From NCBI GenBank assembly GCA_013415665.1, contig JAAEEQ010000010.1, positions 1-42,659 on the forward strand: a DNA stretch of 42,659 bases, given 5' to 3'. Position numbers and translations under genes: made by a program. The notes beneath the pieces are model-generated. The model was not told where the DNA came from, did not search any database, and was given only the letters and a program-made list of their open reading frames with translations. Source of the DNA: Methanomicrobiales archaeon (lineage in GTDB: Archaea > Halobacteriota > Methanomicrobia > Methanomicrobiales > Methanomicrobiaceae). Below are positions 2,647-34,774 of this stretch, one piece after another. Every line of letters starts with the position of its first letter. Position 1 is the stretch's first letter.

Positions 2647-5382
2647 TTGCAGGGTCATGGTGCAAAGGTTCATGTCAGAGTTGATCGCGTGAATCCTGCC
2701 AGCCTCCACCTGAATGCCGCTGCCGTCGCCATCGTCATGCTCGCGGCCATGCTTATCGTCCCCGCAACCGCAGATACGCAAACCCCGCAGCTGCTTTCGT
2801 TTTCCTCACCGACCGCGAACGGCACCTACGGGATCGGTTCCGCCATTACCATCAACGCATCGTACAACGAGCTCCTCAAAAGCACCAGCCAGATCGTGGT
2901 CCGGCTCAATACCACGACGGACGTGACGCTTTCAGCCGTCACGGACACGATCGCGCCGGTGCATGCCGGCAGCCTCACGGACGGCGGTGCGATCCAGCTG
3001 GACGCCGCCTCGGCAGTCGTTGTTTCCGGAAATTACGCCTATATTACATCGTTTAACAACCACGCGCTGGAGATCGTCGATATCAGCGATCCCTTCCACC
3101 CGGCTCACGCAGGAAGCCTGACGAACGGCACCGGTGGAGCACTGCTCCTGACACCGCGGGGCGTGCAGGTCTCCGGCAATTATGCCTATGTTGCTTCTTC
3201 CGGCAGCGATGCGCTCGAGATCGTCGACATTTCCGATCCCGCAAATCCCGCCCACGCCGGATTCCTCGTGCACGGTACCGGAGGGGCCCGCCTCGACGAT
3301 CCCCGCGGCGTTTTTGTTTCGGGAAATTACGCCTATGTCGCATCCTATGGGAGCAGTGCGCTTGAAATCGTCGATATTTCCGATCCCGCAAATCCCGCCC
3401 ACGCCGGGTTCATCGTGAACGGGGCGGGAGGAGCGCTGCTTGCAAATGCCTCCGCAGTGTACGCCGCCGGCAGTTATGCCTATGTCGCAGCGTACGGGAG
3501 CAACGCGCTTGAGATCATCGATATATCGACACCCGCAAGCCCTGCTCACGCGGGTAGCCTTACCCACGGCAGCGGCGGAGCGCTGCTCGCAAATCCCGCC
3601 GCCGTGCAGGTTGCCGGACTGTACGCCTATGTTGCAGCCTCCGGCAGCAATGCCCTTGAGATCGTCGATGTCGGCAATCCCGCAAGCCCCACGCACGCAG
3701 GCAGCCTTACCCATGGCACCGGCGGAGCACTGCTCTCCGGCCCCCGGGACCTTGCCGTCTCCGGCACATACGCTTACGTTGCCTCCTACAGCAGCAACGC
3801 CCTTGAAATCGTCGATGTCAACAATCCTGCAAGCCCCGTGCACGCCGCCAGCATCATCAGCGGGGCAGGCGGTGCACTGCTCAACGGGCCGGAGGGCGTC
3901 GCCCTCTCCGGCGGCTATGCAGTTGTCCCATCCTGGGTGCAGGACAGCCTTGAAATTGTGAAAATCGGCACCAGCACGATTTCCGGCACGTATACGGTCG
4001 CCGCCGGGCATGCCGTCCCGCAGCTCGACGTGCAGTCCATCACCTCGCAGGCGGCCGAGGATATTGCCGGCGTTACCAACGCTTCGACGACGATGCCCGC
4101 CACCACCATCGTCCCTGCACGGCTGCTTGCGATCGACGGCATACGCCCCGTGATCACCATCACCGCGCCCACGAAAACCTCGACCGGCGCCATTGCCGAC
4201 ACGACTGTGCGCGTCACCGATAACCGGGGGATCAACACCGCGTCCGTCCTGGTCAACGCATCAACGAGTGCTGGGTATTCGGGATTCACGGCCACCCAGA
4301 CGAGCGCAACACAGGTTGACTGTACGATCGTCGTCACCTCGTCCGGCGACCTGATCATCAATGCCACCGACACTACCGGCAACACGCAGGTTGCCGCGGA
4401 ACACGGGTATGCCATCAGCTATCCCCCGTCCGTGACGTCCATCACCCCCGCAACCGGTTCGAACAACGGGATCGTCACGATCACGAATCTTACCGGAACG
4501 CACTTTGCCCCGGGAGCGTCGGTCAAGCTGATGAAAACCGGCGAGACGAACATTACCGCCGGAAACGTCGTTGTCGCCTCGCCGACCGCCATGAGCTGCA
4601 CCGTTACGGTCAATTACGTCACGCCCGGGGCCTGGACGGTCGTCGTCGTCAATCCCGACGGACAGGAAGGCGTGCTGGTTGATGGCTTTACCTTTGTCTA
4701 TGTCGCTCCCGCCGATACCGGCGGCGGTGGCGGCGGGTCCTCCATCAGCACGGGAGCGGCACAGAACATTCCCGCGGGAACACAGGCTGACTTCGGGTTC
4801 ACGGCGTCCCGTGTGGCAAAGGTCAGCGTGACGGCGGGAGAGGGAGGGATTGCCGACATCATCGTCACCGTCGAAAAGGTCGGCGGACTCCCCCGGAATG
4901 TCGATGCCCCGGGTACCGAGATCCTCGAATACAATGAAATCAGCCCGTACAGGGCTGCAGAAGATGCCATTGCCGGCGCATGCATTGAATTTTTTGTCAC
5001 GCGCTCCGATCTTGCCGCCCGCGGCTGGAATCCCGGCGATATCGTCATGCTCCGGTGGCATGACGGCGCCTGGCAGCAGCTCGAAACGCACGTGACGGGA
5101 AGTGACGGCACTGCCTGGCATTATCGCGCAGTCACTCCCGGGCTTTCATACTTCGCAATAGGGTACGCCGAGGGGCAGGCCATTGACGACACCGCCGGGG
5201 AAGAGCCCGCACCCGCAGAGACGGCAACGCCTGCAGCAACGCCCCTGCTAACCGCGGCCGTGACCCCCGAAGCAACCCGGACACCCGCACCGGGGCCGAC
5301 GGCATCGCCGGCAGGGCTCCCGGCCCTGTTCGCAGCCCTTGCCATCGGCACCATCGCATGTTCACGGCTCCGCAGAAGGTAA
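2647..5382 (+). CDS. Secreted LVIVD-repeat beta-propeller protein with TIG and PGF-pre-PGF domains
   Basis: This is a 911-residue surface protein. The chosen TTG start has GGAAG 4 nt upstream. A GTG at 2689 would give a more typical ~29-residue signal peptide and is a real alternative. After the signal peptide, seven repeats of exactly 49 residues (~101-440) carry the YAYVAS and ALEIVDISDP signatures of the LVIVD family and should close into one seven-bladed propeller. An Ig-like stretch (~495-590), an IPT/TIG-like domain (~593-688) and a PGF-pre-PGF domain (~698-842) follow. The C-terminus is a Thr/Pro/Ala linker, a hydrophobic helix and RLRRR, the layout of archaeosortase-processed proteins, although the helix starts with PAGLP rather than a canonical PGF. 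Location at the cell surface is inferred; the ligand is unknown. Confidence 0.9.
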   Translation: MQGHGAKVHVRVDRVNPASLHLNAAAVAIVMLAAMLIVPATADTQTPQLLSFSSPTANGTYGIGSAITINASYNELLKSTSQIVVRLNTTTDVTLSAVTDTIAPVHAGSLTDGGAIQLDAASAVVVSGNYAYITSFNNHALEIVDISDPFHPAHAGSLTNGTGGALLLTPRGVQVSGNYAYVASSGSDALEIVDISDPANPAHAGFLVHGTGGARLDDPRGVFVSGNYAYVASYGSSALEIVDISDPANPAHAGFIVNGAGGALLANASAVYAAGSYAYVAAYGSNALEIIDISTPASPAHAGSLTHGSGGALLANPAAVQVAGLYAYVAASGSNALEIVDVGNPASPTHAGSLTHGTGGALLSGPRDLAVSGTYAYVASYSSNALEIVDVNNPASPVHAASIISGAGGALLNGPEGVALSGGYAVVPSWVQDSLEIVKIGTSTISGTYTVAAGHAVPQLDVQSITSQAAEDIAGVTNASTTMPATTIVPARLLAIDGIRPVITITAPTKTSTGAIADTTVRVTDNRGINTASVLVNASTSAGYSGFTATQTSATQVDCTIVVTSSGDLIINATDTTGNTQVAAEHGYAISYPPSVTSITPATGSNNGIVTITNLTGTHFAPGASVKLMKTGETNITAGNVVVASPTAMSCTVTVNYVTPGAWTVVVVNPDGQEGVLVDGFTFVYVAPADTGGGGGGSSISTGAAQNIPAGTQADFGFTASRVAKVSVTAGEGGIADIIVTVEKVGGLPRNVDAPGTEILEYNEISPYRAAEDAIAGACIEFFVTRSDLAARGWNPGDIVMLRWHDGAWQQLETHVTGSDGTAWHYRAVTPGLSYFAIGYAEGQAIDDTAGEEPAPAETATPAATPLLTAAVTPEATRTPAPGPTASPAGLPALFAALAIGTIACSRLRRR
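2951..3979 (+). repeat. Seven tandem 147-bp repeats encoding LVIVD propeller blades
   Basis: The Tyr-Ala-Tyr block recurs at 3031, 3178, 3325, 3472, 3619, 3766 and 3913, an exact spacing of 147 bp with no indels. Neighbouring units keep long near-identical stretches around the codons for EIVDISDPANPAHAG. The repeat lies within the coding sequence. Confidence 0.85.
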
Positions 5383-5407
5383 GCGGCTGCGCTGCCCTCC
5401 CCCATTT

Positions 5408-6331
5408 TTAACGCTTTTCCGGCCCGTTCAGGGCACGATGCGATTTTACAAAGAAGAAGCCGACGACCCCGAACGTGATGACCGGGGACACCCAGACCGG
5501 TATTTCATGCCCGAAACTGTCAAGCAGCATGACGCACCCGAGAACCGCTATCGAGTACATCGCACCGTTTTTGACGTAGATGTATTTTTTTATGTTCTCG
5601 ATGTTCCGGATCGTGATCTCCCGGACCACGAACGCCCCGACCCCGTTGCCGATCAGGATCAGGGGCACGGACAGCGTAAACGCGAACGCCCCGATAACCC
5701 CGTCGATGGAGAATGTCGCATCGATCACCTCGAGATAGAAGATCTTGCTGATATCCGACATCCGGCCCGAGAGCATCCGCCGTTCCTGCTCTTCCGCATT
5801 CTGCCGGAAACCGTGGACGATAAAGAATGCCGTCGAACCCGCGACCGCCCCGAACGCCATTATCGGATCCCGGGCAAGCGCAAACCAGACGAGCGCAGCA
5901 AGCAGGACGGACACGGTTGCGAAGAACCAGACGCCCTGGGACGCGATGAACCGCTCTCCGCGGAGCCCGTAGTGTTTCTCCTCGAGAAACAGCCAGTGGC
6001 AAAAGAGAAAGACGAGAAACGTCCCGCCTGCAATGAGCAGGAGGGGCGAGGCCTCCTCGATCGCCGCCGGGATCGCCGGGTCACCGGAAAAGGTTGCCGT
6101 AAAGGCCTCCACCGGCCCGACGCCGGGCGTGGCGAGCCAGACTATCAGCCAGGGCAGCAGCCCGCGGATGACGAAAACGGCAAAAAACAGGCCATAGATG
6201 AGGAACCAGCGCCGTGCCCGTTCCTGCATGGTCGCAAGCACTTCGGCATTGATGATGGCATTGTCTATGCTCGTAATCGTCTCAAAGAGGCAGAGGCCGG
6301 CAATGATGATGAGAGCAGCGCCGATATCCAT
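5408..6331 (-). CDS. DUF475 family (TerC-like) integral membrane protein
   Basis: This 307-residue polytopic membrane protein has about eight hydrophobic segments. Two acidic motifs mark the TerC/DUF475 superfamily: ETITSIDNAIINAEVL near residues 17-32, and a second EVIDATFSIDGVIGAFAF near 200-217. They place paired Asp/Glu/Asn side chains inside the membrane. TerC-type proteins are linked to metal ion export and tellurite resistance, and DUF475 itself has no established substrate. The length is normal for the family. The gene converges with the LVIVD gene and is divergent from the repeat protein at 6443. Family membership is secure; a role in metal handling is only an inference. Confidence 0.85.
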   Translation of the reverse strand: MDIGAALIIIAGLCLFETITSIDNAIINAEVLATMQERARRWFLIYGLFFAVFVIRGLLPWLIVWLATPGVGPVEAFTATFSGDPAIPAAIEEASPLLLIAGGTFLVFLFCHWLFLEEKHYGLRGERFIASQGVWFFATVSVLLAALVWFALARDPIMAFGAVAGSTAFFIVHGFRQNAEEQERRMLSGRMSDISKIFYLEVIDATFSIDGVIGAFAFTLSVPLILIGNGVGAFVVREITIRNIENIKKYIYVKNGAMYSIAVLGCVMLLDSFGHEIPVWVSPVITFGVVGFFFVKSHRALNGPEKR

Positions 6332-23550: not shown

Positions 23551-26082
23551 ATGGCACCCTCCAGCACCCCTGTCGAATATCGCGATCTCCCGCTCTTTTT
23601 TGCCGTTCACGACACGATGGATATTCCGCTGCTTATCAGCGACGGTGACCGGAAAGTGCGCTGGATGAACCGTGCCATGGAGGAGTGGGCGGATATCTCC
23701 CGCGAACAGGCTGCGGGGATGGACTATGCGGCATTGCTGCGGGAGCGCATCGGGCCGAAACTCCGGAAGGGAGCGGCCTTTGTTCGCGACGTCGAGGCCG
23801 CAATAGAGCAAAAAGAGAATATACGGCAGCGGGTGTGCCGCGAAGAGGAGGGCGGCCGCGAACGCTGGTTCGAATTTACCAGCAGGATCGTCGAAAACGG
23901 CGCCTATCTTCCCGGGAGGATCGATCTTTTCCAGGACATCACCGCCGCCGTTGCCCTCAAAGAGTCGGAGGAACGGCAGAACGTACTGCAGGGGCTCGTT
24001 GCGGAAATATCGTCCCTGCTCACCGACACGCCCCTCGATGGCATCGACGCCACGGTGCGTAACGCTCTGGCCCGCCTCGGTTCGGGCATGGGCGTCGCAC
24101 GGTGCCACGTGTTCCTCATGCGGGCGGACGGGACCGGCAAGGCATTCGAGTACGAATGGAATGCGGCAGCGTCAGCCCCGTGCGACGGCCTGGCGGGGGT
24201 CACCATCTATTCGTTCCCCCAAAAGGACGGCGTCCCGGACAGCGGTGGCATCCTGCAGGCAATCAGGATCAACGGCCGCCTTCGCAGCCATGCCGTTCCG
24301 CTCCGGGGAAGGAGCCTGCACGGATTTCTCTGCATCGACGCCACGGCAACGGATATCCCGTTCCTTGCTTCCAACCATCACCTCCTCCGGATGGTGGGCG
24401 ACACCGTCACGACGGCACTGGAGAGCCGTGAGGTGGACCAGGGCCTCCGCCGCCACGACTCCCTCTGCGAATCCGTCATGAACGCTTCGGGCACGCTCCT
24501 TCGCTCGGGGGGGTGGGACGAGAACATGACGGAGATCCTCGCAACCCTTGCCGGGGGTTCGGGCGCAGAGCGCGTATACCTTATCGATACCTCGGACGCC
24601 GCCGAGGGGATGAACCTCTTCGAGTGGCACGCTCCCACCGTCACACCGGGATTTGCCGACGGCACCCGGGAGATACCGTGGCATGCCGAAGGGATGGAGC
24701 CCTGGTCGGCCGCCCTTTCCCTCGGGCATGTCATCACCGCACGCACGACCGACCTTCCGCCCCGGATTCGCAGCCTTTTCAACGCACGCAATGTCGCATC
24801 GTTCGCAATCCTTCCCATTCTGGCGGGAGACGTCTGCTCGGGGTACCTGGGCCTCGAAAACTGTACTGCCCCGCATCTCTGGACAAAAGCGGAGATCGAA
24901 GCACTCAAAACCGCAGCCGACTCGCTGGGGCTGATGATCTACCGCAGGATGAAAGAGCGGGAAGCAGAACGGTACAATACCCAGCTGACCATCATCAACG
25001 GGATCGTCGGTGCCGCCTCCCTCCCGGGCAGCCTCGATGGAATCATCCGCGAAACGCTCAAAAAAACCCTTGATCTTCTTTCAGTGCCTGCTGCTGCCGT
25101 TTACCTGCTCGATCCGCGCGGGCGCGAAGCGCAGCTGCACACGGCCGAGGGGCGAGAGAGCCACCGGCTGTTTCCGGAAAAAATCGCCCGTGAGATGCCG
25201 GCGCTCGCCCCTGTATTCGCGGCAAAGCCGGTGTACGGGATCGCACTCGATGGGCAGGAGGGCCGCTCCGCCTGGATTCCGCTCGCCGGCGGGGGCGCTC
25301 CCGTCGGCATTATGGCCGTCGCGCTACCCGGCGGCCGCACCTTCGCCACATTCGAACAGCAGGCGCTTGACGCTGCCGCCCGCGAGTTCGGTGCGGCGAT
25401 CACCCGCGGACTGCTGCAGGGGCAGCTCAAGGACTCCATCGACAAGGCGAATCTCTATCTCGACATCATGGCGCATGACATTAAAAACGCGACCACCGTT
25501 TCGATCATGTATGCGGATATGCTGCGCGAAATCGTCACGGGGGAAGCACGCGACTTTTCAGAGAAACTGATGGACAGCGTCCGGCGGACGGTTGAGATCA
25601 CCGATCACGTCTCCACCATCCGCCGCCTGCACGAGGAGACGCCCCTTTTAAAGCCCGTGAACCTGGACACGATTATCAAAACGGAGATTGCCCGGTTCCC
25701 GAAGACGACGATCCGCTACTCGCCGTCAAGCTTCTCCGTCTGCGCCGACGACCTGGTCAGCGAAATATTCTACAATCTCATCGGCAACAGTGTCAAATTC
25801 GGCGGCGACGGCGTCGAGGTCTTTATCAGGGTGCAGGAACGCCAAAAGGAACTGGAGATCACCGTTGAGGACAGCGGGCCCGGCATTCCCGATACGATGA
25901 AGAATGTCATCTTCGATCGGTTCCAGCGGGGATCGAAGAAGGCCACCGGCAGGGGACTCGGGCTCTATATCGTCAGGACGCTGATCGAACGCTACGGCGG
26001 CACGGTTTCGGTGCACGACCGCGTCCCCGACCACCCGGGACAGGGCGCCTCCATCAGGTTTACGCTTAAAAAAGCGGTATAA
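23551..26082 (+). CDS. Cytoplasmic sensor histidine kinase, PAS-GAF-GAF-GAF-HisKA-HATPase
   Basis: This is an 843-residue protein without membrane segments. It has a PAS domain ~15-135 (MDIPLLISDGDRKVRWMNRA), GAF-like domains ~145-290, ~305-470 and ~480-625, and a phospho-acceptor box LDIMAHDIKNATTV with His642. The HATPase domain has N box FYNLIGNSVKFG (N746), G1 EDSGPGIP (D774), F box FDRFQRG and G2 GRGLGLYIV, so all ATP-binding elements are present. It should autophosphorylate on His642 in response to a small ligand or redox signal sensed by PAS/GAF. No response regulator is adjacent, as is usual for orphan methanogen kinases. It is divergent from the broken HTH-PAS gene and 115 bp upstream of a second kinase. 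Confidence 0.88.
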   Translation: MAPSSTPVEYRDLPLFFAVHDTMDIPLLISDGDRKVRWMNRAMEEWADISREQAAGMDYAALLRERIGPKLRKGAAFVRDVEAAIEQKENIRQRVCREEEGGRERWFEFTSRIVENGAYLPGRIDLFQDITAAVALKESEERQNVLQGLVAEISSLLTDTPLDGIDATVRNALARLGSGMGVARCHVFLMRADGTGKAFEYEWNAAASAPCDGLAGVTIYSFPQKDGVPDSGGILQAIRINGRLRSHAVPLRGRSLHGFLCIDATATDIPFLASNHHLLRMVGDTVTTALESREVDQGLRRHDSLCESVMNASGTLLRSGGWDENMTEILATLAGGSGAERVYLIDTSDAAEGMNLFEWHAPTVTPGFADGTREIPWHAEGMEPWSAALSLGHVITARTTDLPPRIRSLFNARNVASFAILPILAGDVCSGYLGLENCTAPHLWTKAEIEALKTAADSLGLMIYRRMKEREAERYNTQLTIINGIVGAASLPGSLDGIIRETLKKTLDLLSVPAAAVYLLDPRGREAQLHTAEGRESHRLFPEKIAREMPALAPVFAAKPVYGIALDGQEGRSAWIPLAGGGAPVGIMAVALPGGRTFATFEQQALDAAAREFGAAITRGLLQGQLKDSIDKANLYLDIMAHDIKNATTVSIMYADMLREIVTGEARDFSEKLMDSVRRTVEITDHVSTIRRLHEETPLLKPVNLDTIIKTEIARFPKTTIRYSPSSFSVCADDLVSEIFYNLIGNSVKFGGDGVEVFIRVQERQKELEITVEDSGPGIPDTMKNVIFDRFQRGSKKATGRGLGLYIVRTLIERYGGTVSVHDRVPDHPGQGASIRFTLKKAV

Positions 26083-26103
26083 CGCGGAAACGTAATAACA
26101 CAT

Positions 26104-26145
26104 GATTATCAACTCGCCTGACCAAACGTATAGCCAGAGATAATC
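26104..26145. promoter_or_regulatory. Pair of GATAATC-type half-sites between the two histidine kinases
   Basis: GATTATC at 26104-26110 and GATAATC at 26139-26145 form an inverted pair separated by 28 bp. The left copy extends to GATTATCA, identical to a half-site upstream of the ABC operon. The spacing is unlike the other two sites, so this may be two separate half-sites or chance. Confidence 0.3.
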
Positions 26146-26197
26146 GTCCGCAGGGCAGCCGCGCGGATAAAGTACACCCCTCGGATGGCAATGTACC

Positions 26198-28642
26198 ATG
26201 GAACTCCGGAAAAAGACGCTTCTGTACCTGAATGCCACGTTCATCATCATCATTATCCTGACCCTTGTCTTTTCCTCAAACCTGCTTCTTTCGAGTTATT
26301 CCGAGCTGGAGGAGCGGGAGGTCAGGGGGGATCTCGTCCGCGTCACCAACCTGCTGCGGATTCAGGTCGACGGCATCAGCAGGACAGCCGGCGATTACGC
26401 TGCATGGGACGATACGTATGAGTTTGTCGAAAGAGGAAAAGAGGACTCCATCGAAGAGGACTACATCGAAGCGAATTTTATCGAGGAAACATTTCAAAAT
26501 CTCAATATTAACCTCGTAATCATCACCGATGCGGACGCCGGCGTCCTCTACGCGGTCGTGTACGACCCCGTGCAGGAAGCCTTGATTCCGCTTCCCGCGA
26601 GCTGGTCCGCATATTTTGACCGGAACAGCGCGCTGTACGGGAACGCCCTTCCGGAGAGTCCGGTTGCCGGCATCATCCGGTTTCCCGAAGGGCCGATGAT
26701 CATCGCGTCCCGGGCAGTCCAGAAAAGCGACCATTCGGGGCCGCCGAATGGCTTTCTCGTCATGGGCGCGTACCTGGACAATGAACGGATCGACGCGCTG
26801 GGAGAAGCGATCGGCCTTCCCGTGGAAATACGTGAAAATAACCCGAACCTGGCATCTGCCGAAGTGGTGCCGGTCAGCGATGCAATCATAGATGGATTCG
26901 TTCCGGTCAGGGATATTCTGGGGAACGAGCCGTATCTTATTCACATATCCGAATCCCGGGATATTTACCAGCAGGGGAAGGCAACCCTCCTTGCCTTTAC
27001 CGCGGTCCTTCTCGTGATCGGGCTGACATTCGGCCTCCTCAGCATCATGCTCATCGACCGCGCCCTCCTCTCCCGCCTCAGCCTCCTCGCCGTCAATGTC
27101 GCCGCCATCGGCGGGGAAGGGGATGTGAGCAGGCGTGTCGGTACCGCAGGCGACGACGAGATATCCCACCTTGGAGATGCCATCAACCGGATGCTTGCAA
27201 AGATCCAGCAGATCCAGACGAACCTGCAGGAAAGCGAGACGCGGTACCGTGGGATCGTCAACGATCAGACCGATTTCATCTGCCGTTTCAGGAGCGACGG
27301 CGTCGTTACCTTTGCAAACGAAATCTTTTGCGACTATATCGGCCGTCCGGCAGAGGATATCTTCGGTGCCGTGTTTTCACAGGATATCCTGCCCGAAGAC
27401 TTGCCGCTGGTCAAAAAAGCCATGCAAACGGTCACCGCCGATCTGCCTGCGGAGACCACGGAATTCCGCGTCGTTCGGCCGGACGGATCAATCCGGTGGC
27501 AGCACTGGACGATACGGGGGATCTTTGACGAGACCGGCAAAGTCACCGAGTACCTGATGGTCGGCCAGGACATCACGGACCTGAAAGTCACCCAGGAGGC
27601 GCTCCTCGAGAGCCAGCGGATGCAGGCGGCCCTGATGGGCAACCTGCCCGGCATGGTGTTCCGCGGCGCGAATGACGCCAACTGGACCATGGAATTCGTC
27701 AGCGACGGTTCCCATAGCCTGACCGGCTACACGCCCGACGAACTGGTCGGCGGCGAAGGCACCGGCTATGAAGACCTCGTCGCCAAAGAGGATGTGCCGC
27801 TCGTCTGGAATACCATCCGGGAGGCGCTTTCAGAAAATAAGCCATATCGCGTCAGGTACCGGATCCACACCCGTTCCGGTGACGAAAAATGGGTGTGGGA
27901 ACTCGGCAACGGAGTCTACCGAGACGGTACCTGTATCGGGCTCGAAGGATTCATCATGGATATAACGGCCGTGAAGCGCTCGCAGGACGCTATCGCGGAA
28001 GCCAACCGGAAACTCAATCTCCTCAACAGCATCACCCGCCACGACATTCTCAACCAGCTCACCGCCCTGATCGGATACATCGAACTGGCAGGCGAGGATA
28101 CGGCCGATGCACACCAGAAACGCTACCTGCAGAAGATGGACGGGATCACCGAGACCATCAGGGGGCAGATCGAGTTCACCCGCGACTACCAGCAGCTCGG
28201 GGTTACGGGAGCGCAGTGGTATGAAGTCGATGCGACGATACGGCAGGGGATCGCTCCTCTGGACCTCGGAAAGGTGCAGCTCTCCGTCGGCGTCGGCCGC
28301 ATGGAGATCTATGCCGATCCCCTCCTCGGCCGGGTGTTCTACAACCTTGTAGACAACAGCCTCAACCACGGCGGGCCGGCACTCTCGAGGATCGACATAT
28401 CGGGACGCAAAACCGCGGAGGGCTGCCTGTTGATCTACGAAGACGACGGGGAAGGGATCTCGACGGAGGACAAAAAGAGGATTTTTTCGGCGGGATTCGG
28501 AAAAATCAATGGCTACGGCCTGTTCCTCATCAGGGAGGTTCTGCAGATCACCGGCATTTCCATTACGGAAACCGGCGAGCCGGGAAAAGGGGCACGCTTT
28601 GAGATGTTCATCCCCCGCAGCCGGTTCCGGAACGACGGGTAA
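26198..28642 (+). CDS. Membrane sensor histidine kinase, CHASE4-HAMP-PAS-PAS-HisKA-HATPase
   Basis: This is an 814-residue protein. TM1 at ~9-31, an outer CHASE4-type domain ~45-250 with the mark DYAAWDDTYEF, TM2 at ~268-292, HAMP ~292-345, PAS ~350-470 (FICRFRSDGVVTFANE) and PAS ~480-600 (WELGNGVYRDGTCIGLEGFI, PAC-like end). The phospho-acceptor box is NSITRHDILNQLTALIGY with His615. The HATPase has N box FYNLVDNSLNHGG, EDDGEGIS and a shortened G2 (GYGLFLIREV). It senses an extracellular ligand and passes the signal across the membrane. It follows the PAS-GAF kinase on the same strand. GATAAAG about 30 nt before the ATG may be its own TATA box. Confidence 0.9.
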   Translation: MELRKKTLLYLNATFIIIIILTLVFSSNLLLSSYSELEEREVRGDLVRVTNLLRIQVDGISRTAGDYAAWDDTYEFVERGKEDSIEEDYIEANFIEETFQNLNINLVIITDADAGVLYAVVYDPVQEALIPLPASWSAYFDRNSALYGNALPESPVAGIIRFPEGPMIIASRAVQKSDHSGPPNGFLVMGAYLDNERIDALGEAIGLPVEIRENNPNLASAEVVPVSDAIIDGFVPVRDILGNEPYLIHISESRDIYQQGKATLLAFTAVLLVIGLTFGLLSIMLIDRALLSRLSLLAVNVAAIGGEGDVSRRVGTAGDDEISHLGDAINRMLAKIQQIQTNLQESETRYRGIVNDQTDFICRFRSDGVVTFANEIFCDYIGRPAEDIFGAVFSQDILPEDLPLVKKAMQTVTADLPAETTEFRVVRPDGSIRWQHWTIRGIFDETGKVTEYLMVGQDITDLKVTQEALLESQRMQAALMGNLPGMVFRGANDANWTMEFVSDGSHSLTGYTPDELVGGEGTGYEDLVAKEDVPLVWNTIREALSENKPYRVRYRIHTRSGDEKWVWELGNGVYRDGTCIGLEGFIMDITAVKRSQDAIAEANRKLNLLNSITRHDILNQLTALIGYIELAGEDTADAHQKRYLQKMDGITETIRGQIEFTRDYQQLGVTGAQWYEVDATIRQGIAPLDLGKVQLSVGVGRMEIYADPLLGRVFYNLVDNSLNHGGPALSRIDISGRKTAEGCLLIYEDDGEGISTEDKKRIFSAGFGKINGYGLFLIREVLQITGISITETGEPGKGARFEMFIPRSRFRNDG

Positions 28643-28686: not shown

Positions 28687-29322
28687 ATGCGAATACCTAT
28701 CGTTCTCATCCTGCTGGCAGCACTCCTGGTAACCGCCGGGTGTACCGGTGTGCCGCCCGCCGCACCCGCCACGCCCACGCCGGCGCCGGAAGCCACCACC
28801 GTCGCCCCGACGCCAACGGCCGAACCGACGCCCGAACCCGAACCGTTCCCGGATGCCCTTCCCATCGGGGGCGAGTTCCGGTACGGCAGTGAAGAAGACC
28901 TCCGTGAGATCGAAGTCTACCGGGCCTTCACGGTCGCGACCTACTGGTGGCATTCCGACCAGACCGGCTCCAACTGGGAGACCAAACCGCAGGATGCCGC
29001 GAACAACCAGTTCCTCTTCGTGCAGCTGAAAGTAAAGCACCTCGGCACCAAAAAGGAGATCGGCGCCCCGCATCCAACGGGCTGCATCGTATGGTACGAA
29101 GGAAGGCAGTACCCCGTCTGGACGGGGCGCGACAACGATTCGCCGCCCATCATCGATCTCGGCCTTCCCATCGACGACTATTACGGAGGAATCCTGAGAA
29201 AATATGAAACCAGAGACGGTTTCCTGATCTTCGAGGTCCCCAAAACCCTCACCCCCGGCGACGCGCACCTTGCCATCGCACTGGGCAACCAGTACGACGT
29301 GCCGGTATGGAAACTCGGCTAA
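28687..29322 (+). CDS. Lipoprotein, DUF4352-like
   Basis: This is a 211-residue exported protein. The signal ends in a lipobox (VTAGC, Cys19), so it is probably lipid-anchored to the outer face of the membrane. A Thr/Pro/Ala/Glu linker (~20-58) follows, as is usual for methanogen surface lipoproteins. The C-terminal ~130 residues have the beta-sandwich pattern of DUF4352/telokin-like domains (NNQFLFVQLKVKHLGTKKEI, DGFLIFEVPKTLTPGDAHLA). It lies 44 nt after the CHASE4 kinase and may share its transcript, so a role as a ligand-binding partner of that sensor is conceivable. No enzymatic residue is visible. Confidence 0.8.
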   Translation: MRIPIVLILLAALLVTAGCTGVPPAAPATPTPAPEATTVAPTPTAEPTPEPEPFPDALPIGGEFRYGSEEDLREIEVYRAFTVATYWWHSDQTGSNWETKPQDAANNQFLFVQLKVKHLGTKKEIGAPHPTGCIVWYEGRQYPVWTGRDNDSPPIIDLGLPIDDYYGGILRKYETRDGFLIFEVPKTLTPGDAHLAIALGNQYDVPVWKLG

Positions 29323-30146
29323 CAGAACGGCGAGTGCAGGGCCCCAACAAGATCCTCTTTTCTCCCCACAACGACCGACGACTCTTCGAGCATGAGGTTC
29401 ACGCGTTCCGCGTGGCCCGTCCGCCGGAAATCGGTCCTGAGCGCGATGACCGGAATGCCCCTGGCATAGGCGTACCCCATCTCCCACGAGGTCCCCGAAT
29501 CGGCATCCGCACCGTCGATGACGGCGACGACCATGTCGGTACGGTCAAGCTCCTCGCGGTGGCGGGTAAATATGGCTGCATGCTCGTCCCGCCCGCGGGT
29601 GTGGCTGGTATCGCCGACTTCCTGCGGGAGATAGACCTCGAAGGCGTGCGCCGTCAGGAGCGAAAAGAGTTCGCGGTTGTACGCCTGCTCCGCCTCCGAA
29701 AAGAGCGGGCCTGCAAGATAGATATGGTACGAGGCGAAGGTTTTCACATCGATTGCCCGCACCTCGGGGAACCGCGCAAAAAATGCCCCCCTTCCTGCCT
29801 CTGCGGTCTCCGTCCGGTGCGTCCGGTTCACCCCGCATGCCGGCGAGGCATCGACGCCCACCATCGCGACCGGCGCCCCGCGCTCCGCGATGATCGTTCT
29901 GACCTGCCGCTCCTGTTCGTCGAGGATCTTTTCGAACGCCGGTGTATCGAGCCTTGATTCGTAACTTCCCGGTTCCCTGCCCTTTCCGAGATACGCGGTC
30001 TCCGGGCAGGGCAGCATGACGGTGTCGATGTGAAATTTCCGGCAGCGCTCGATGCAACCCCGAAATGCCGCGATATCCTCCTGCCGGGTGATGCCGGCGG
30101 CGCGAAGGGAGGGATCCTGCACACAGGGGCAGACCAGTACGTACAT
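29319..30146 (-). CDS. Fusion of a DUF523/TudS-like cysteine domain with nucleoside 2-deoxyribosyltransferase
   Basis: This is a 275-residue protein. Residues ~1-125 carry C6-P-C8, LPCPE (C47) and ASPACG (C104). This order resembles the three cysteines of DUF523/TudS (2-thiouracil desulfurase) proteins, where they bind an Fe-S cluster; the resemblance is by eye only. Residues ~141-275 match the nucleoside 2-deoxyribosyltransferase family: HIYLAGPLFS, the D/E-rich core DADSGTSWEMGYAYARGIPV with the presumed nucleophile E222, and a late ERVNLMLEESS. That family swaps or removes bases on deoxynucleosides. ATG 30146 is chosen because earlier codons read antisense to tsr3. The ATG is 30 bp from the divergent tsr3. 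A thiobase-salvage role is inference. Confidence 0.75.
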   Translation of the reverse strand: MYVLVCPCVQDPSLRAAGITRQEDIAAFRGCIERCRKFHIDTVMLPCPETAYLGKGREPGSYESRLDTPAFEKILDEQERQVRTIIAERGAPVAMVGVDASPACGVNRTHRTETAEAGRGAFFARFPEVRAIDVKTFASYHIYLAGPLFSEAEQAYNRELFSLLTAHAFEVYLPQEVGDTSHTRGRDEHAAIFTRHREELDRTDMVVAVIDGADADSGTSWEMGYAYARGIPVIALRTDFRRTGHAERVNLMLEESSVVVGRKEDLVGALHSPFC

Positions 30147-30176
30147 TGAAATGAGATTCGCGCTCAACCGTCTTAG

Positions 30177-30674
30177 ATGATACCGCTCTTTGCGTATCGC
30201 GACAACTCCTGCAACCCGAAAAAATGCACCGTCAAAAAACTGGAGCGGGCGGGAATGGTCACCATCGTGACGCATCCTGCAAAAATACCGAAAAACTCCC
30301 TCATTCTTGACCCGACCGCCGAGCAGGCGCTCTCTCCCGCCGATCGCGGCGTTGCATCCGTAACGGCGCTTGACTGCTCGTGGGAGGTGCTGGACGCCGT
30401 GCTCGGGCACCGTTTCCGGATCCGGCGTGCACTCCCGTTTCTCGTGGCGGCGAACCCCGTCAATTTCGGGCGGCCGTTCCGGCTGACCTCCGTCGAGGCG
30501 CTTGCTGCGGCACTCTGGATCCTCGGCGAACCCGCACAGGCGGCAGCGATCCTTCACCGTGTTTCCTGGGGCGAACGATTTTTAGAGGTCAATGCCGAAC
30601 CGCTTGCCGAGTATGCGAAAGCCCGGGACAGCACGGAGATTATCAGGATACAGGCAGAGTATATCGAAACATGA
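30177..30674 (+). CDS. tsr3: Archaeal Tsr3 (DUF367), rRNA aminocarboxypropyltransferase
   Basis: This 165-residue protein is full length for archaeal Tsr3, which transfers the 3-amino-3-carboxypropyl group of SAM to a hypermodified uridine (m1acp3Psi region) of small-subunit rRNA. Family signatures are all visible: RDNSCNPKKCTVKKL near the start, LILDPTAEQALSPADR, SVTALDCSWE, RALPFLVAANPVNFGRPFRL and the end SWGERFLEVNAEPLAEY. The fold is SPOUT-like with SAM bound in the knot. It is divergent from the deoxyribosyltransferase fusion with 30 bp between starts, leaving room only for overlapping promoters. Confidence 0.93.
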   Translation: MIPLFAYRDNSCNPKKCTVKKLERAGMVTIVTHPAKIPKNSLILDPTAEQALSPADRGVASVTALDCSWEVLDAVLGHRFRIRRALPFLVAANPVNFGRPFRLTSVEALAAALWILGEPAQAAAILHRVSWGERFLEVNAEPLAEYAKARDSTEIIRIQAEYIET

Positions 30675-30686
30675 CCCCGGGCGGTT

Positions 30687-32552
30687 TTATTCGCCTTTTT
30701 TCGTGTCGCCGGCCGTTTCCGGCAGGCTCACGCCCTGTTCCGCGAGGATAGAGAGGAACATCAGCACACCGACGGCATTCGCCAGCATCATCGGGAAGAG
30801 GGTCGTCCTGACGAGGCCGATATACGCCGGAAACGATGCATCCGTCAGCAGCGGGACGAGAACAAGGATATGGAGGCACTCGGCTGCCATCGCGAGCAGC
30901 ACACCGGCGATATAGGTCACTTTTCCGCGCCGGAGGCGCCGGAACGCCCCGCCGAGAAGCCCTGCGATGACGGGGGCGAGAGAACAGGGAAGGACCGTCC
31001 ACCCCCCGAGGGTGTACCGGTACGCCCCGCCGATAAAGCCGCTCGCTATCCCGGCGGCAGGCCCGCCGACGAGCCCGGCAATGAGGGGGGCGAGATCGCG
31101 GAAGTTGACGATGAACCCGCCGGCATCGATGCCCCGCATCGTGCCGTAGACCGACAGCGCCCCGAAGATCAGTGCGATCCAGCAGACGTCGGGCCAGGTC
31201 GTCCTGCCGCAGATCGCATCGGAAAAGAGCCGGCTCCGGGAGAAGAGGTAGAGGGCAAGGACGACCAGCGCAATCCGCTCCAGCAGCGGAAGCCCGAATG
31301 CCAGGATTGACTCCTCCTGCAGGAGTGCGATAAGGAGGAATGCAACGCTCCCGGAGGCCATCACGAGCAGCCAGAGGCGCGAGCCGCGGGCATACGGGGG
31401 CAGGCTGAGGTCCACGTAGATGAGCATGAACCCGAGAACGGCGAACATGATCGATGCAAAGGCGGAGATATACCGTATGATTGCCTCAGGGCTTCCTATG
31501 AGCGCTGCGATGAGGATGATGGCACAGAATGCAAGAATGATGATCCGGTAGAGTGTCCGGGCGTCCAGGTCAGTGCTTTGGGTCGATTGGAGAAACGACG
31601 CTATTGCGCGGGCTCGCCCGTCCATCCCGCTGATGACCGCCCCGAAGAGGATGGCGGATCCCGTCAGGAGAAAGACGGGCATGCCGAAGGGGAGAGCCAG
31701 GAGAACCAGCGAAACATCCTCGGTGATATCCGCAATAGTCGTGCCGTGCTCCTCCCCGCCGGCATTGGCCGCGTTCCCGAGAGAGCAGAAGACCACGGCA
31801 ATGAAGGCGATGAGCAGAAACGCCATTGCCAGGGTGGAGGTGACGTTTCCCATCGACGCACGGAAGTGGGATTCGCCGTGGCTCCCGCCCTGCGCCTCGT
31901 GCAGCCAGACAGAATAGAGCAGCAGGTTCAGCCCCGATCCGACCGCACCCATCAGGGCCATGATCGTCATCAGGGAGCCGTGGGGGATCAGGGCGAACGG
32001 TTCCGCCACCGGCACCGTTTCGGGCGAGAGCGGGATGGCAAGGAGGCTGTAGGCGACGCCTGCAACCAGCACCAGCACCAGCGCAGTCATGACCGCCTCC
32101 AGCCGTAAAAGCGATTCCCGCCAAAGCACCGCGATGATCACGGCAAGCGCCGCGAGGGTGATCGCAAGCGGAGGAACGGCGCCGCCCGTCACCACCGCCA
32201 GGAAGGTGCCTGCAAAGAGCGCGATGCCGCCGTACCCGATCATCTCGAGGATATAGATCCACATGATGAAGATCACCTCCCAGTTTTTCGGGCCGGGTAT
32301 GGCCCTTAAGCCGGTAAAGATTGGCTCCCCTGTTGCGAGGGTATAGCGGGCGATGCCGTGTGAAAGGGCGAACTTGAACAGAAGCGTGATGCCGAAGACC
32401 CAGAGGAGGGCGTACCCGTACTCATCGCCGGCGGCGAGCACTTCGGTCAGCCCGTGCTCGCCGCTCGCTTCGACGGCGAGCAGCAGGGCGGGTCCCGCAA
32501 ACGCGAGGCGATCGCGGAGCCGGACGGAGAGAAGGTTACGAATGCCGGGCAT
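30687..32552 (-). CDS. Nramp-like transporter core fused to a 5TM-LYT domain
   Basis: This is a 621-residue membrane protein. Residues ~10-450 have about 11-12 helices in the Nramp order, starting GPALLLAVEASGEHG and ...EYGYALLWVF, close to the start of manganese transporters. But the Nramp DPGN motif is replaced by SGEHG, and the TM6 MPH motif region reads GAVGSGLNLLLYSVW, so the usual metal site is lost. Residues ~475-600 match the 5TM-5TMR_LYT domain of LytS-type sensors (RDLAPLIAGLVGGPAAGIAS, GGAYRYTLGGWTVLPCSLAP). A transporter-like core joined to a sensor membrane domain is unusual. It is divergent from an ABC operon, with 100 bp and a palindrome between. Substrate and signal are unknown. 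Confidence 0.82.
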   Translation of the reverse strand: MPGIRNLLSVRLRDRLAFAGPALLLAVEASGEHGLTEVLAAGDEYGYALLWVFGITLLFKFALSHGIARYTLATGEPIFTGLRAIPGPKNWEVIFIMWIYILEMIGYGGIALFAGTFLAVVTGGAVPPLAITLAALAVIIAVLWRESLLRLEAVMTALVLVLVAGVAYSLLAIPLSPETVPVAEPFALIPHGSLMTIMALMGAVGSGLNLLLYSVWLHEAQGGSHGESHFRASMGNVTSTLAMAFLLIAFIAVVFCSLGNAANAGGEEHGTTIADITEDVSLVLLALPFGMPVFLLTGSAILFGAVISGMDGRARAIASFLQSTQSTDLDARTLYRIIILAFCAIILIAALIGSPEAIIRYISAFASIMFAVLGFMLIYVDLSLPPYARGSRLWLLVMASGSVAFLLIALLQEESILAFGLPLLERIALVVLALYLFSRSRLFSDAICGRTTWPDVCWIALIFGALSVYGTMRGIDAGGFIVNFRDLAPLIAGLVGGPAAGIASGFIGGAYRYTLGGWTVLPCSLAPVIAGLLGGAFRRLRRGKVTYIAGVLLAMAAECLHILVLVPLLTDASFPAYIGLVRTTLFPMMLANAVGVLMFLSILAEQGVSLPETAGDTKKGE

Positions 32553-32652: not shown

Positions 32653-33378
32653 ATGGCCGCCATCATCGAAACACAGGATCTGACCAAAACCTTCGGGGAT
32701 ACGACCGCCGTCGATCACGTGACACTTTCCATCGCCGCGGGGGAGCTCTTCGGCCTTCTCGGCCCGAACGGCTCGGGAAAGACCACGATGAACAAACTGC
32801 TGACCGGCCAGATACGTCCCGATGCCGGAACGGTCCGGGTTATGGGGCTCGATGTCCCGGCTGATCCGGTCCGCGTCCGGGCCGGCATCGGGATCATCCC
32901 CGAACAGGAGACGCCGCCGAGCTTTCTCACCGCGGAGGAGTACCTCCATTTCGTTGGAAGGGTCCGCGGGATTACCGCCATCGACGAGCAGGCTGAAAAA
33001 TGGTTCGACATCCTTGAATTCCGCGACAAACGGCAGGTACTCTGCAAGGATCTCTCCCGGGGCACCCGGCAGAAACTGATGGTCGCACAGGCGTTCCTGC
33101 ACGAACCGCCGCTGGCGTTCATCGACGAACCCCTCATCAACCTCGATCCCATCATGCAGCGCACGGTCAAGGATTTCCTGTCCGAGTACGTGGCCGGCGG
33201 CGGGACCGTCTTTTTCTCCACGCATATCCTCGGCATCGCGGAGGAGATCTGCACCTCCTTTGCCATTCTGCACAACGGTGTCGTCCTCCACCACGGCACC
33301 ATCGACGAACTCGTTACCGGCGATCGCCACCTCGAGGGATTCTTCCTCGAACGGGTGCGGGGGCATGCCCATGCGTGA
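32653..33378 (+). CDS. ABC transporter ATP-binding protein
   Basis: This 241-residue ATPase has Walker A GPNGSGKTT at ~38-46, a Q-loop near IIPEQE, signature LSRGTRQ (in place of LSGGQ, as in many ABC-2 exporters), Walker B LAFIDEP, and a switch His in FFSTHIL. It energises the permease encoded next. The ATG lies ~27 nt after the AATATA element that forms the palindrome spacer. The C-terminal GHAHA stretch overlaps the permease start by 14 nt, so the pair is translationally coupled. ABC-2 systems of this build often export lipids, drugs or polymers; the substrate is not evident. Confidence 0.92.
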   Translation: MAAIIETQDLTKTFGDTTAVDHVTLSIAAGELFGLLGPNGSGKTTMNKLLTGQIRPDAGTVRVMGLDVPADPVRVRAGIGIIPEQETPPSFLTAEEYLHFVGRVRGITAIDEQAEKWFDILEFRDKRQVLCKDLSRGTRQKLMVAQAFLHEPPLAFIDEPLINLDPIMQRTVKDFLSEYVAGGGTVFFSTHILGIAEEICTSFAILHNGVVLHHGTIDELVTGDRHLEGFFLERVRGHAHA

Positions 33379-34774
33379 CCTCTTTGTCGCCATGGTAAAA
33401 GAGGAGTGGCGTATCCACGCAACAATGGCGGGCAATCTCGGGTTCGGGCTCTTCCCCGTGATGATCGCCGCGTTTTCCTTCATGGGCGCGTGGATCCTGC
33501 CCTTATTTCTTGAAATCGTGCCCGCCTCCCTCCTTGCCTTCATCGTCCATGCGATGTTTGCCCTGATGGGCGTCATGGTCGGGAGCTTCGGGATCATGGG
33601 CCGCGAGTTCATGAACCGGCGGTTCGGGCAGGCGAGCCTGATCGCCTACTCCTCGAGAAGCCTGCCGCTTTCTGAGCGCACGATCTTTGCAACCTTCGTT
33701 GCCAAAGACGTCCTGTTTTACCTGTTTCTCTGGGTGATCCCGGCCGTTGCCGGTATTGCTGCGGCAGCACCCTTCATCGGCATGGAGCCGGCATTCCCGC
33801 TTCTGTTGCTGGTCACGTTTTCCCTTTCGTTTCTTGAAGGCCTGGCAGTGGTCTTCTTCCTTTCGACACTCTATGCCCGTTCCCCCCGCATCGCCGGCGC
33901 AATCCTCGCCGCCGGGGCAGTCGCCGTCGCGCTGGCGTCGCTCGCCGGCATCGGCCCTGCGATGCTGCTGCCCCCGTACGCCTTCCTCCTCGCCCCCGGA
34001 ATCCTGCCGCTCGCTGCGTCCCTTGCCCTGATCGGCATTCCGGCAGCCGTTTCGATCGCATGGGCGACTATCGAGTATCCCGACGCCGCACGCCGGTACC
34101 CGAACAGCTTCGACGGGCTGTCAGACCGGCTTTCCCTGTTTTCACGCCCCTGGCTGACGGCGAAGGACGCCCTCGACCTCCGGCGCAGCGAGGGAGGGAT
34201 CGCCAAGATCATTTTCTCGTTTCTCATGCCGCTCGGCCTCGTCTGGGTCTTTTTGTCCGTCCTCTTCCGGTTTATCCCGGGGCTTTCCCCGCTCATCGTC
34301 TTCGCGGTGCTGCTCGGGGTCATATCGTCGACAACCTATAACTGGCTGACGGAGTTCGATACCTTCTCTGCGTACGCCTTTCTCCCGGTGGATGTGCGGA
34401 CCGTGATTACCGGCAAACTGCAGAGTTATGGCGTTATCAATCTCGTTTCCCTTGCCGTGCTGATCCTTGCCGCGGCAGCAGCGGGTGATGCGGGTGCCGT
34501 TGTACCGGCGGTGCTCGCTTTTCTATCGGTATCGGCCTACTCACTTGCGGTCACGGTCCGGCTGACCGGTCTCTACCCGTCGGTAATGCTTTACCAGGTC
34601 CGTGTCTTTCTCCTCTACCTGGCAGCCATCAGCCCGGCGCTGCTCGTCCTTATCTTCGTCTCCATCCTTGATCCGTGGTATGCCGCCGGAAGCGTCGTGC
34701 TCCTGCCGGCCGCATGGTTCCTGCTGGACCGCGCCATGCTCAGGTGGACGGCGTTCGACATGCCGAGCTACTGA
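33365..34774 (+). CDS. ABC-2 type permease
   Basis: This is a 469-residue protein with about 12 hydrophobic helices and no other domain. The chosen start (MPMRDLFVAMVKEEWRIHA) has GGGTG 7 nt upstream and overlaps the ATPase end by 14 nt; a second ATG at 33371 is possible. The cytoplasmic N-terminal stretch before the first helix is typical of ABC-2 permeases. It is probably a half-transporter that dimerises or acts alone with two ATPase copies. It has no close neighbour of the same type. The substrate is unknown, and the divergent Nramp-LYT gene may be functionally linked through the shared operator region. Confidence 0.85.
   Translation: MPMRDLFVAMVKEEWRIHATMAGNLGFGLFPVMIAAFSFMGAWILPLFLEIVPASLLAFIVHAMFALMGVMVGSFGIMGREFMNRRFGQASLIAYSSRSLPLSERTIFATFVAKDVLFYLFLWVIPAVAGIAAAAPFIGMEPAFPLLLLVTFSLSFLEGLAVVFFLSTLYARSPRIAGAILAAGAVAVALASLAGIGPAMLLPPYAFLLAPGILPLAASLALIGIPAAVSIAWATIEYPDAARRYPNSFDGLSDRLSLFSRPWLTAKDALDLRRSEGGIAKIIFSFLMPLGLVWVFLSVLFRFIPGLSPLIVFAVLLGVISSTTYNWLTEFDTFSAYAFLPVDVRTVITGKLQSYGVINLVSLAVLILAAAAAGDAGAVVPAVLAFLSVSAYSLAVTVRLTGLYPSVMLYQVRVFLLYLAAISPALLVLIFVSILDPWYAAGSVVLLPAAWFLLDRAMLRWTAFDMPSY

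Follow-up and report, generated by a model that had tools for sequence, protein, structure and literature searches.

An open reading frame in a Methanomicrobiales contig encodes an Nramp-related carrier core fused to a complete C-terminal LYT sensor domain. The protein has an architecture that was reported in 2024 (PMC11109136). The core has lost the side-chain ligands of the metal site, and the sensor keeps most pocket residues of the receptor BtsS. The fusions form one clade, nearly all of it in Methanomicrobiales. Our favoured reading, held tentatively and at somewhat less than an even chance, is a sensor-gated carrier, in which the LYT part would sense an external small carboxylate and control the Nramp-related carrier. 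The window is the whole stretch of DNA analysed, i.e., 42,659 nucleotides of contig JAAEEQ010000010.1. The gene and its two parts were placed as follows (locus labels with L and genome labels with G are ours):

30687..32552, minus strand: whole fusion gene, 621 aa, by translation and profile matches; full-length relatives ~33-52% identical in Methanomicrobiales
31317..32501, minus strand: Nramp-related (LeuT-fold) core, residues ~18-412, 11 TM helices, by PF01566/NF037982 and AlphaFold with Foldseek (TMt ~0.8)
30738..31316, minus strand: 5TM-5TMR_LYT (S-component fold) sensor with H0 helix, residues 413-605, by PF07694 (E 5e-35) and alignment of H0-H6

The coordinates, strand, and frame of the initial annotation were correct. 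In the 621-aa protein, Pfam recognized Nramp (PF01566) at residues 38-379 (E 2.2e-12, 47.1 bits against a curated cut-off of 29.8) and 5TM-5TMR_LYT (PF07694) at residues 442-605 (E 5.1e-35, 121 bits against 24.6). NCBIfam Nramp_1 (NF037982) matched residues 20-380 (E 1e-23). The AlphaFold model of the full chain, from a 28-sequence input, had a mean pLDDT of 83.6 and a pTM of 0.75. In Foldseek against PDB, the top 29 fold matches were Nramp-family or Nramp-related, with target-normalised TM-scores of 0.83 for BfraNramp (10ky), 0.79 for EleNRMT (7qia), and 0.78 for DraNramp (8e6h); a YcsG model ranked 15th. PDB sequence search gave one Nramp match and chance sortilin matches. Because of the profile matches and the Nramp-like model, the initial annotation was right on the family of both halves. 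Their sizes had to be revised, i.e., the N-terminal ~450 residues assigned to Nramp are a core of ~18-412, and the C-terminal ~130 residues assigned to LYT extend over ~414-605 with the H0 helix. A chance or frame artefact at 30687-32552 was ruled out by the long conserved relatives. The chain ends 16 residues past its last helix in translation and model, and the LytS-type cytosolic kinase domains that could follow LYT are absent.

The core shares the LeuT fold of canonical Nramp proteins (SLC11, MntH), but not their DPGN and MPH motifs or TM3 acids. Two segments stand at the motif sites:

32442..32462, minus strand: TM1 unwound segment G31-E-H-G-L-T-E37 replacing DPGN, by alignment to E. coli MntH
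31923..31949, minus strand: TM6 unwound segment G202-A-V-G-S-G-L-N-L210 replacing GATIMPHVI, by the same alignment

From MntH to the window protein, D34, P35, G36, and N37 of TM1 become G31, E32, H33, and G34, and A206, M209, and H211 of TM6 become A203, S206, and L208. The side-chain metal ligands are gone, since G31-E-H-G34 stands for DPGN and S-G-L for MPH; this alignment upholds the loss of metal motifs noticed initially. A one-residue register shift may put E32 in place of MntH D34. The acidic proton-path residues of MntH TM3, D109 and E112, are Gly, and E103 lies elsewhere in TM3. As a rule, the paraphyletic Nramp-related proteins have other residues at DPGN and MPH (PMC12873925), and the core agrees with this description of an Nramp fold with both motifs replaced. 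Other euryarchaeal Nramp-like groups in our alignment carry IGPGT, DNDAGG, GPATM or FGSGSV at these sites. The motif loss was therefore rejected as a special novelty, in agreement with the literature (PMC12873925). In the tree, the window core falls outside the DNDAGG-type group.

G31, E32, and G34 are invariant in 19/19 single fusions, and E37 and E103 nearly so. The mean majority in these proteins was 0.88 for the TM6 unwound segment, the best conserved stretch measured, 0.78 for TM2, and 0.77 for the TM1 unwound segment, whereas the core as a whole reached 0.62 and LYT 0.58. No part of the core is better conserved than these three, as would be expected for a working binding site.

Partipilo and Slotboom (2024) reported NRAMP-like proteins with a C-terminal 5TMR as prevalent in archaea, listed them as the only assembly using a membrane transporter as fused domain, and suggested a bridge from ion transport to sensing (PMC11109136). 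Following these authors, the window protein could be a carrier of divalent cations (Mg, Zn or Mn) that contains its own homeostasis sensor, a reading that we consider unlikely. Motif loss does not exclude metals, because EleNRMT moves Mg and Mn despite Asn to Gly and Met to Ala changes in its site (PMC8806188), and E32, E37, and E103 are possible ligands here. EleNRMT (SLC11) is also close to the window core in fold (TMt 0.79), in its altered DPGN and MPH, and in its absent proton-path residues. However, it keeps the TM1 Asp and the TM3 Glu and has no LYT domain. The TM1 Asp, universal in SLC11 according to the authors (PMC8806188), is Gly in the window core, so that the NRMT (Mg2+) trait, i.e., TM1 Asp kept with Asn to Gly, is absent; the TM3 acidic positions are likewise Gly.

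The LYT part aligned from H0 to H6 with LYT-SpoIIE proteins of Methanomicrobiales and with BtsS and PyrS of E. coli. H0 covers residues 414-438 of the model, and the LYT unit is complete. The pocket positions are:

31095..31106, minus strand: N483-F-R485-D, the NxR motif, with R485 equal to BtsS Arg72, by alignment; role of Arg72 from PMC10653868
31017..31019, minus strand: R512, equal to BtsS Arg99, by alignment
30984..30986, minus strand: C523, equal to BtsS Cys110, with A526 in place of Ser113, by alignment

BtsS Asn70 corresponds to N483. The part therefore resembles BtsS/LytS-type 7TM receptors in its H0 and six-helix LYT, its NxR, and its Arg99 and Cys110 equivalents, but it lies C-terminal to a carrier core, has no kinase, and has Ala for Ser113. 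The published BtsS model has both arginines hydrogen-bonded to pyruvate, and each tested change of Cys110 or Ser113, S113A included, abolishes the response; other LytS kinases have Ala or Thr at position 113 (PMC10653868). Because the N/R/R/C residues are kept and Ser113 is Ala, the pocket appears BtsS-like, but pyruvate is not certainly the ligand. The equivalents of N70, R72, R99, and C110 are all kept in 13 of the 19 sampled single fusions, including the window's. They are partly or wholly lost at L016, L033, L034, L036, L039, and L051 and in Methanospirillum, and therefore carboxylate sensing cannot be general in the family. The Methanomicrobiales LYT-SpoIIE partner-switching proteins have LYT sequences ~40% identical to that of the window protein; unlike it, they carry LYT at the N-terminus, with a cytosolic PP2C-type phosphatase and no carrier core.

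Known 11-TM Nramps have the N-terminus inside and the C-terminus outside, and H0 of LytS kinases runs from outside to inside. With the core and H0 so placed, the helices of the model give 21 K/R in inside loops vs 2 in outside loops. The arrangement fits a predicted NxR pocket and loop outside and a C-terminal tail inside, because of the core orientation, the direction of H0, and this charge count.

The wide scan covered 84,980 species genomes with peptide patterns drawn from Methanomicrobiales; bacteria were covered by this pattern scan only. It gave 35 loci, all in Methanomicrobiales. When 345 genomes of the phylum were searched by profile, one further case turned up outside the order, in a family-f8 genome. 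At L126 in family f8 (2828-6208, minus strand), a 1126-residue protein has one Nramp-like core and then three LYT domains, all of them with N/R/R/C. The survey of other Methanomicrobiales proposed in the initial annotation thus found the fusion widespread in the order, and the core was present in at least ~60 of 232 sampled genomes. Besides single fusions, a core-LYT-LYT form of ~877 residues (family f4) and a core-alone form of 417-441 residues (Methanoregulaceae and kin) were found. In the maximum-likelihood tree, fusions, tandem forms, and standalone cores form one clade with full support, apart from MntH and the remaining Nramp-related groups that were sampled, with long branches between groups. 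Frameshifted or split copies, from decay or assembly error, occur at L049, L050, and L057 and in genomes G029, G032, and G064.

The standalone Methanoregulaceae cores may have either lost LYT or never had it. Since they belong to the same clade and lack LYT, the core has a use of its own. They and the selectively conserved TM1 and TM6 segments speak for a core that continues to carry or bind something.

The window fusion is of a lone type. It adjoins two genes, as in Methanocalculus and some Methanogenium loci, and this is conserved synteny, from which we draw no link in function:

30177..30674, plus strand: Tsr3-like ribosome biogenesis protein (PF04034), convergent with the fusion, by Pfam and synteny
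29319..30150, minus strand: nucleoside deoxyribosyltransferase-like gene (PF05014), conserved next to tsr3, start estimated from relatives, by Pfam and synteny

Further off, at 23551-28642 (plus strand, ~2 kb from the fusion), lie two sensor-kinase-like genes side by side, and CHASE4 and PAS domains occur in the second; no conserved pairing of the fusion with such genes was seen in the loci read. Divergent from the fusion, an ABC ATPase and a 473-residue membrane protein without Pfam match are encoded at 32653-34774 (plus strand).

In 19 of the 35 loci, the direct neighbour of the fusion is a binding-protein gene, SBP1, and the two genes mostly overlap by 4 bases. It follows the fusion in most loci, by overlap or directly, and precedes it at L036. 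The SBP1 proteins are mostly 350-410 residues long. They carry a hydrophobic anchor at the N-terminus and a Peripla_BP_6/ANF_receptor domain; four examples matched Peripla_BP_6 at E 4e-31 to 9e-48. The SBP1-linked fusions are one clade in the tree (support 100/98). The best SBP1 relative in the window's own genome had E 1e-4, and none was comparable. At Methanocorpusculum-type loci (L037, L041-L043, L048, L051, L052, L056, and L058), a PnrA/Bmp-like binding-protein gene lies divergently upstream. Because it also adjoins these fusions, a fusion can have two binding-protein neighbours.

The partner genes bear on the divalent-cation reading from both sides. A Znu-type metal ABC importer lies convergent right after the fusion-SBP1 pair in eight genomes of one Methanomicrobiaceae subset (L148-L150, L153-L155, L030, and L033) and a few kb away in a ninth, which would suit a metal substrate. 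However, the proximity may be mere shared gene order, because the Znu genes are part of a longer conserved block with a PEGA protein and a radical-SAM gene and are not beside Methanoculleus, Methanogenium, Methanocorpusculum or lone-type fusions. As proof of a metal substrate, it was set aside. SBP1 itself is of a class that we take to be amino-acid/amide-binding, not metal-binding.

ECF S-components dock via an AXXXA motif in helix 1 and require an ECF module. By analogy, the LYT part could be a capture subunit and not a sensor, taking up solute (where present, from SBP1) and passing it on to the fused carrier. The shared fold of LYT and S-components (PMC11109136) would allow this, and tandem LYT copies with SBP1 pairing fit a binding cascade. 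Nevertheless, AXXXA was not seen by eye in helix 1 of the alignment, no ECF module was noticed in the neighbourhoods read, and the kinase-like output in one lineage points to sensing, so we hold this role to be very improbable.

That lineage is Methanospirillum. Its form has core, LYT, LYT, and a tail of ~290 residues, ~1150 residues in all (L047 2685-6140, plus strand; L044 1433-4873, plus strand). The tail (residues 861-1110) is ~33% identical to the C-terminal half of ~580-residue metallo-beta-lactamase-fold proteins, and the genes of these proteins that were read lie beside or few kb from STAS, RsbW-like ATPase, and LYT-SpoIIE phosphatase genes. One such cassette (L076 265-4255) encodes an RsbW-like ATPase, a LYT-SpoIIE phosphatase, a STAS protein, and a metallo-beta-lactamase-fold protein with a C-terminal domain outside Pfam. 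The Methanospirillum tail matched no Pfam domain. Its model matched histidine kinases by fold, i.e., AdeS (7cch, E 2.9e-4), HK853, and ZraS, at low confidence (pLDDT 66.5, mostly 55-80 along the tail). The tail may be a pseudokinase, because no phospho-acceptor His or N-box Asn was seen by eye. It is the strongest hint of signalling by this platform, in a relative rather than in the window protein. The kinase-like tail and the BtsS-type pocket together support signalling by the fusion family.

Signalling could go further, in that the protein would be a receptor only, a transceptor in the strict sense. The core would be a retired carrier that binds its ligand without moving it, and LYT or a partner kinase would report occupancy. 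This is possible but rather doubtful. It is consistent with the Methanospirillum tail, both in its kinase-like fold and in the region common to the metallo-beta-lactamase-fold proteins of the STAS/RsbW-like/LYT-SpoIIE neighbourhoods, and with the ~40% identity to LYT-SpoIIE sensors. Plant EIN2 is a precedent, having an Nramp-like part without detected metal transport (PMC7912600). However, in most members, as in the window protein, the last LYT helix is followed by 15-80 residues, and a conserved partner kinase is lacking. The substrate-site segments are the best conserved part of the core, and the tail model is of low confidence and, by eye, lacks the His and Asn mentioned above.

For the sensor-gated carrier, the following mechanism is what we infer. 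The 11-TM LeuT-fold core, its transition-metal site gone, would carry another solute. The seven-helix LYT would use its BtsS-type pocket to bind a small, pyruvate-like carboxylate from outside and, joined via H0 to the last helix of the carrier, would alter the carrier's activity. In some lineages, LYT would also relay a signal to a domain in the cytosol. In a subclade that excludes the window protein, the membrane-anchored Peripla_BP_6 protein would present the solute from outside. This reading is supported by the fold, the conserved sites, the standalone cores, the kept pocket, the topology, the SBP1 pairing, and the complete LYT. Against it, no mechanism by which LYT would act on the core can be read from the sequence, Ala stands at the position of Ser113, which BtsS cannot do without, the pocket is lost in several members, and no SBP1 relative in the window's genome scores better than E 1e-4. 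In E. coli, BtsS and BtsT are a linked sensor and carrier, via gene expression rather than fusion. We counted this too against a sensor-gated carrier.

The fusion is a putative transceptor, and this label of the initial annotation is plausible. A bolder version, in which a LeuT-fold Nramp-related carrier is under cis control of a BtsS-like receptor for a small carboxylate and is fed by a membrane-tethered SBP in one subclade, would make the family a single-chain prokaryotic transceptor; we think it improbable. We know of no solute-binding-protein-dependent carrier of the Nramp-related LeuT fold.

The initial annotation stated that no protein of this type had been described, which is wrong because Partipilo and Slotboom reported the fusion architecture in 2024 (PMC11109136). 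An older likeness is plant EIN2, by description an Nramp-like membrane part joined to a signalling part (PMC7912600). It differs in that the signalling part is a soluble cleaved tail, and it belongs to another kingdom. The NRAMP-5TMR fusions are mainly archaeal and have the same architecture as the window protein; they were read as metal transporter plus sensor, without family analysis in the main text (PMC11109136). We found no mention there of the metal-ligand loss, the SBP1 pairing, the tandem LYT, and the kinase-like tail of the family. Literature search with Nramp and Methanomicrobiales gave nothing relevant. As far as our searches and the main text of the 2024 paper go, no published description of the partner gene, the tandem forms or the kinase-like tail was found. 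New here are the single fusion clade, the complete LYT with pocket residues, the SBP1 subclade, and the multi-LYT and kinase-like-tail variants.

The architecture has so far been on record in one paragraph of the text of PMC11109136, as metal transport plus sensing. The present analysis turns a vague idea into testable questions, i.e., ligand binding at R485 and R512, uptake by the core, and the coupling of both. To our knowledge, the uptake systems of methanogens have been little studied. The coupling, if true, would be the control of a carrier by a receptor within a single chain.
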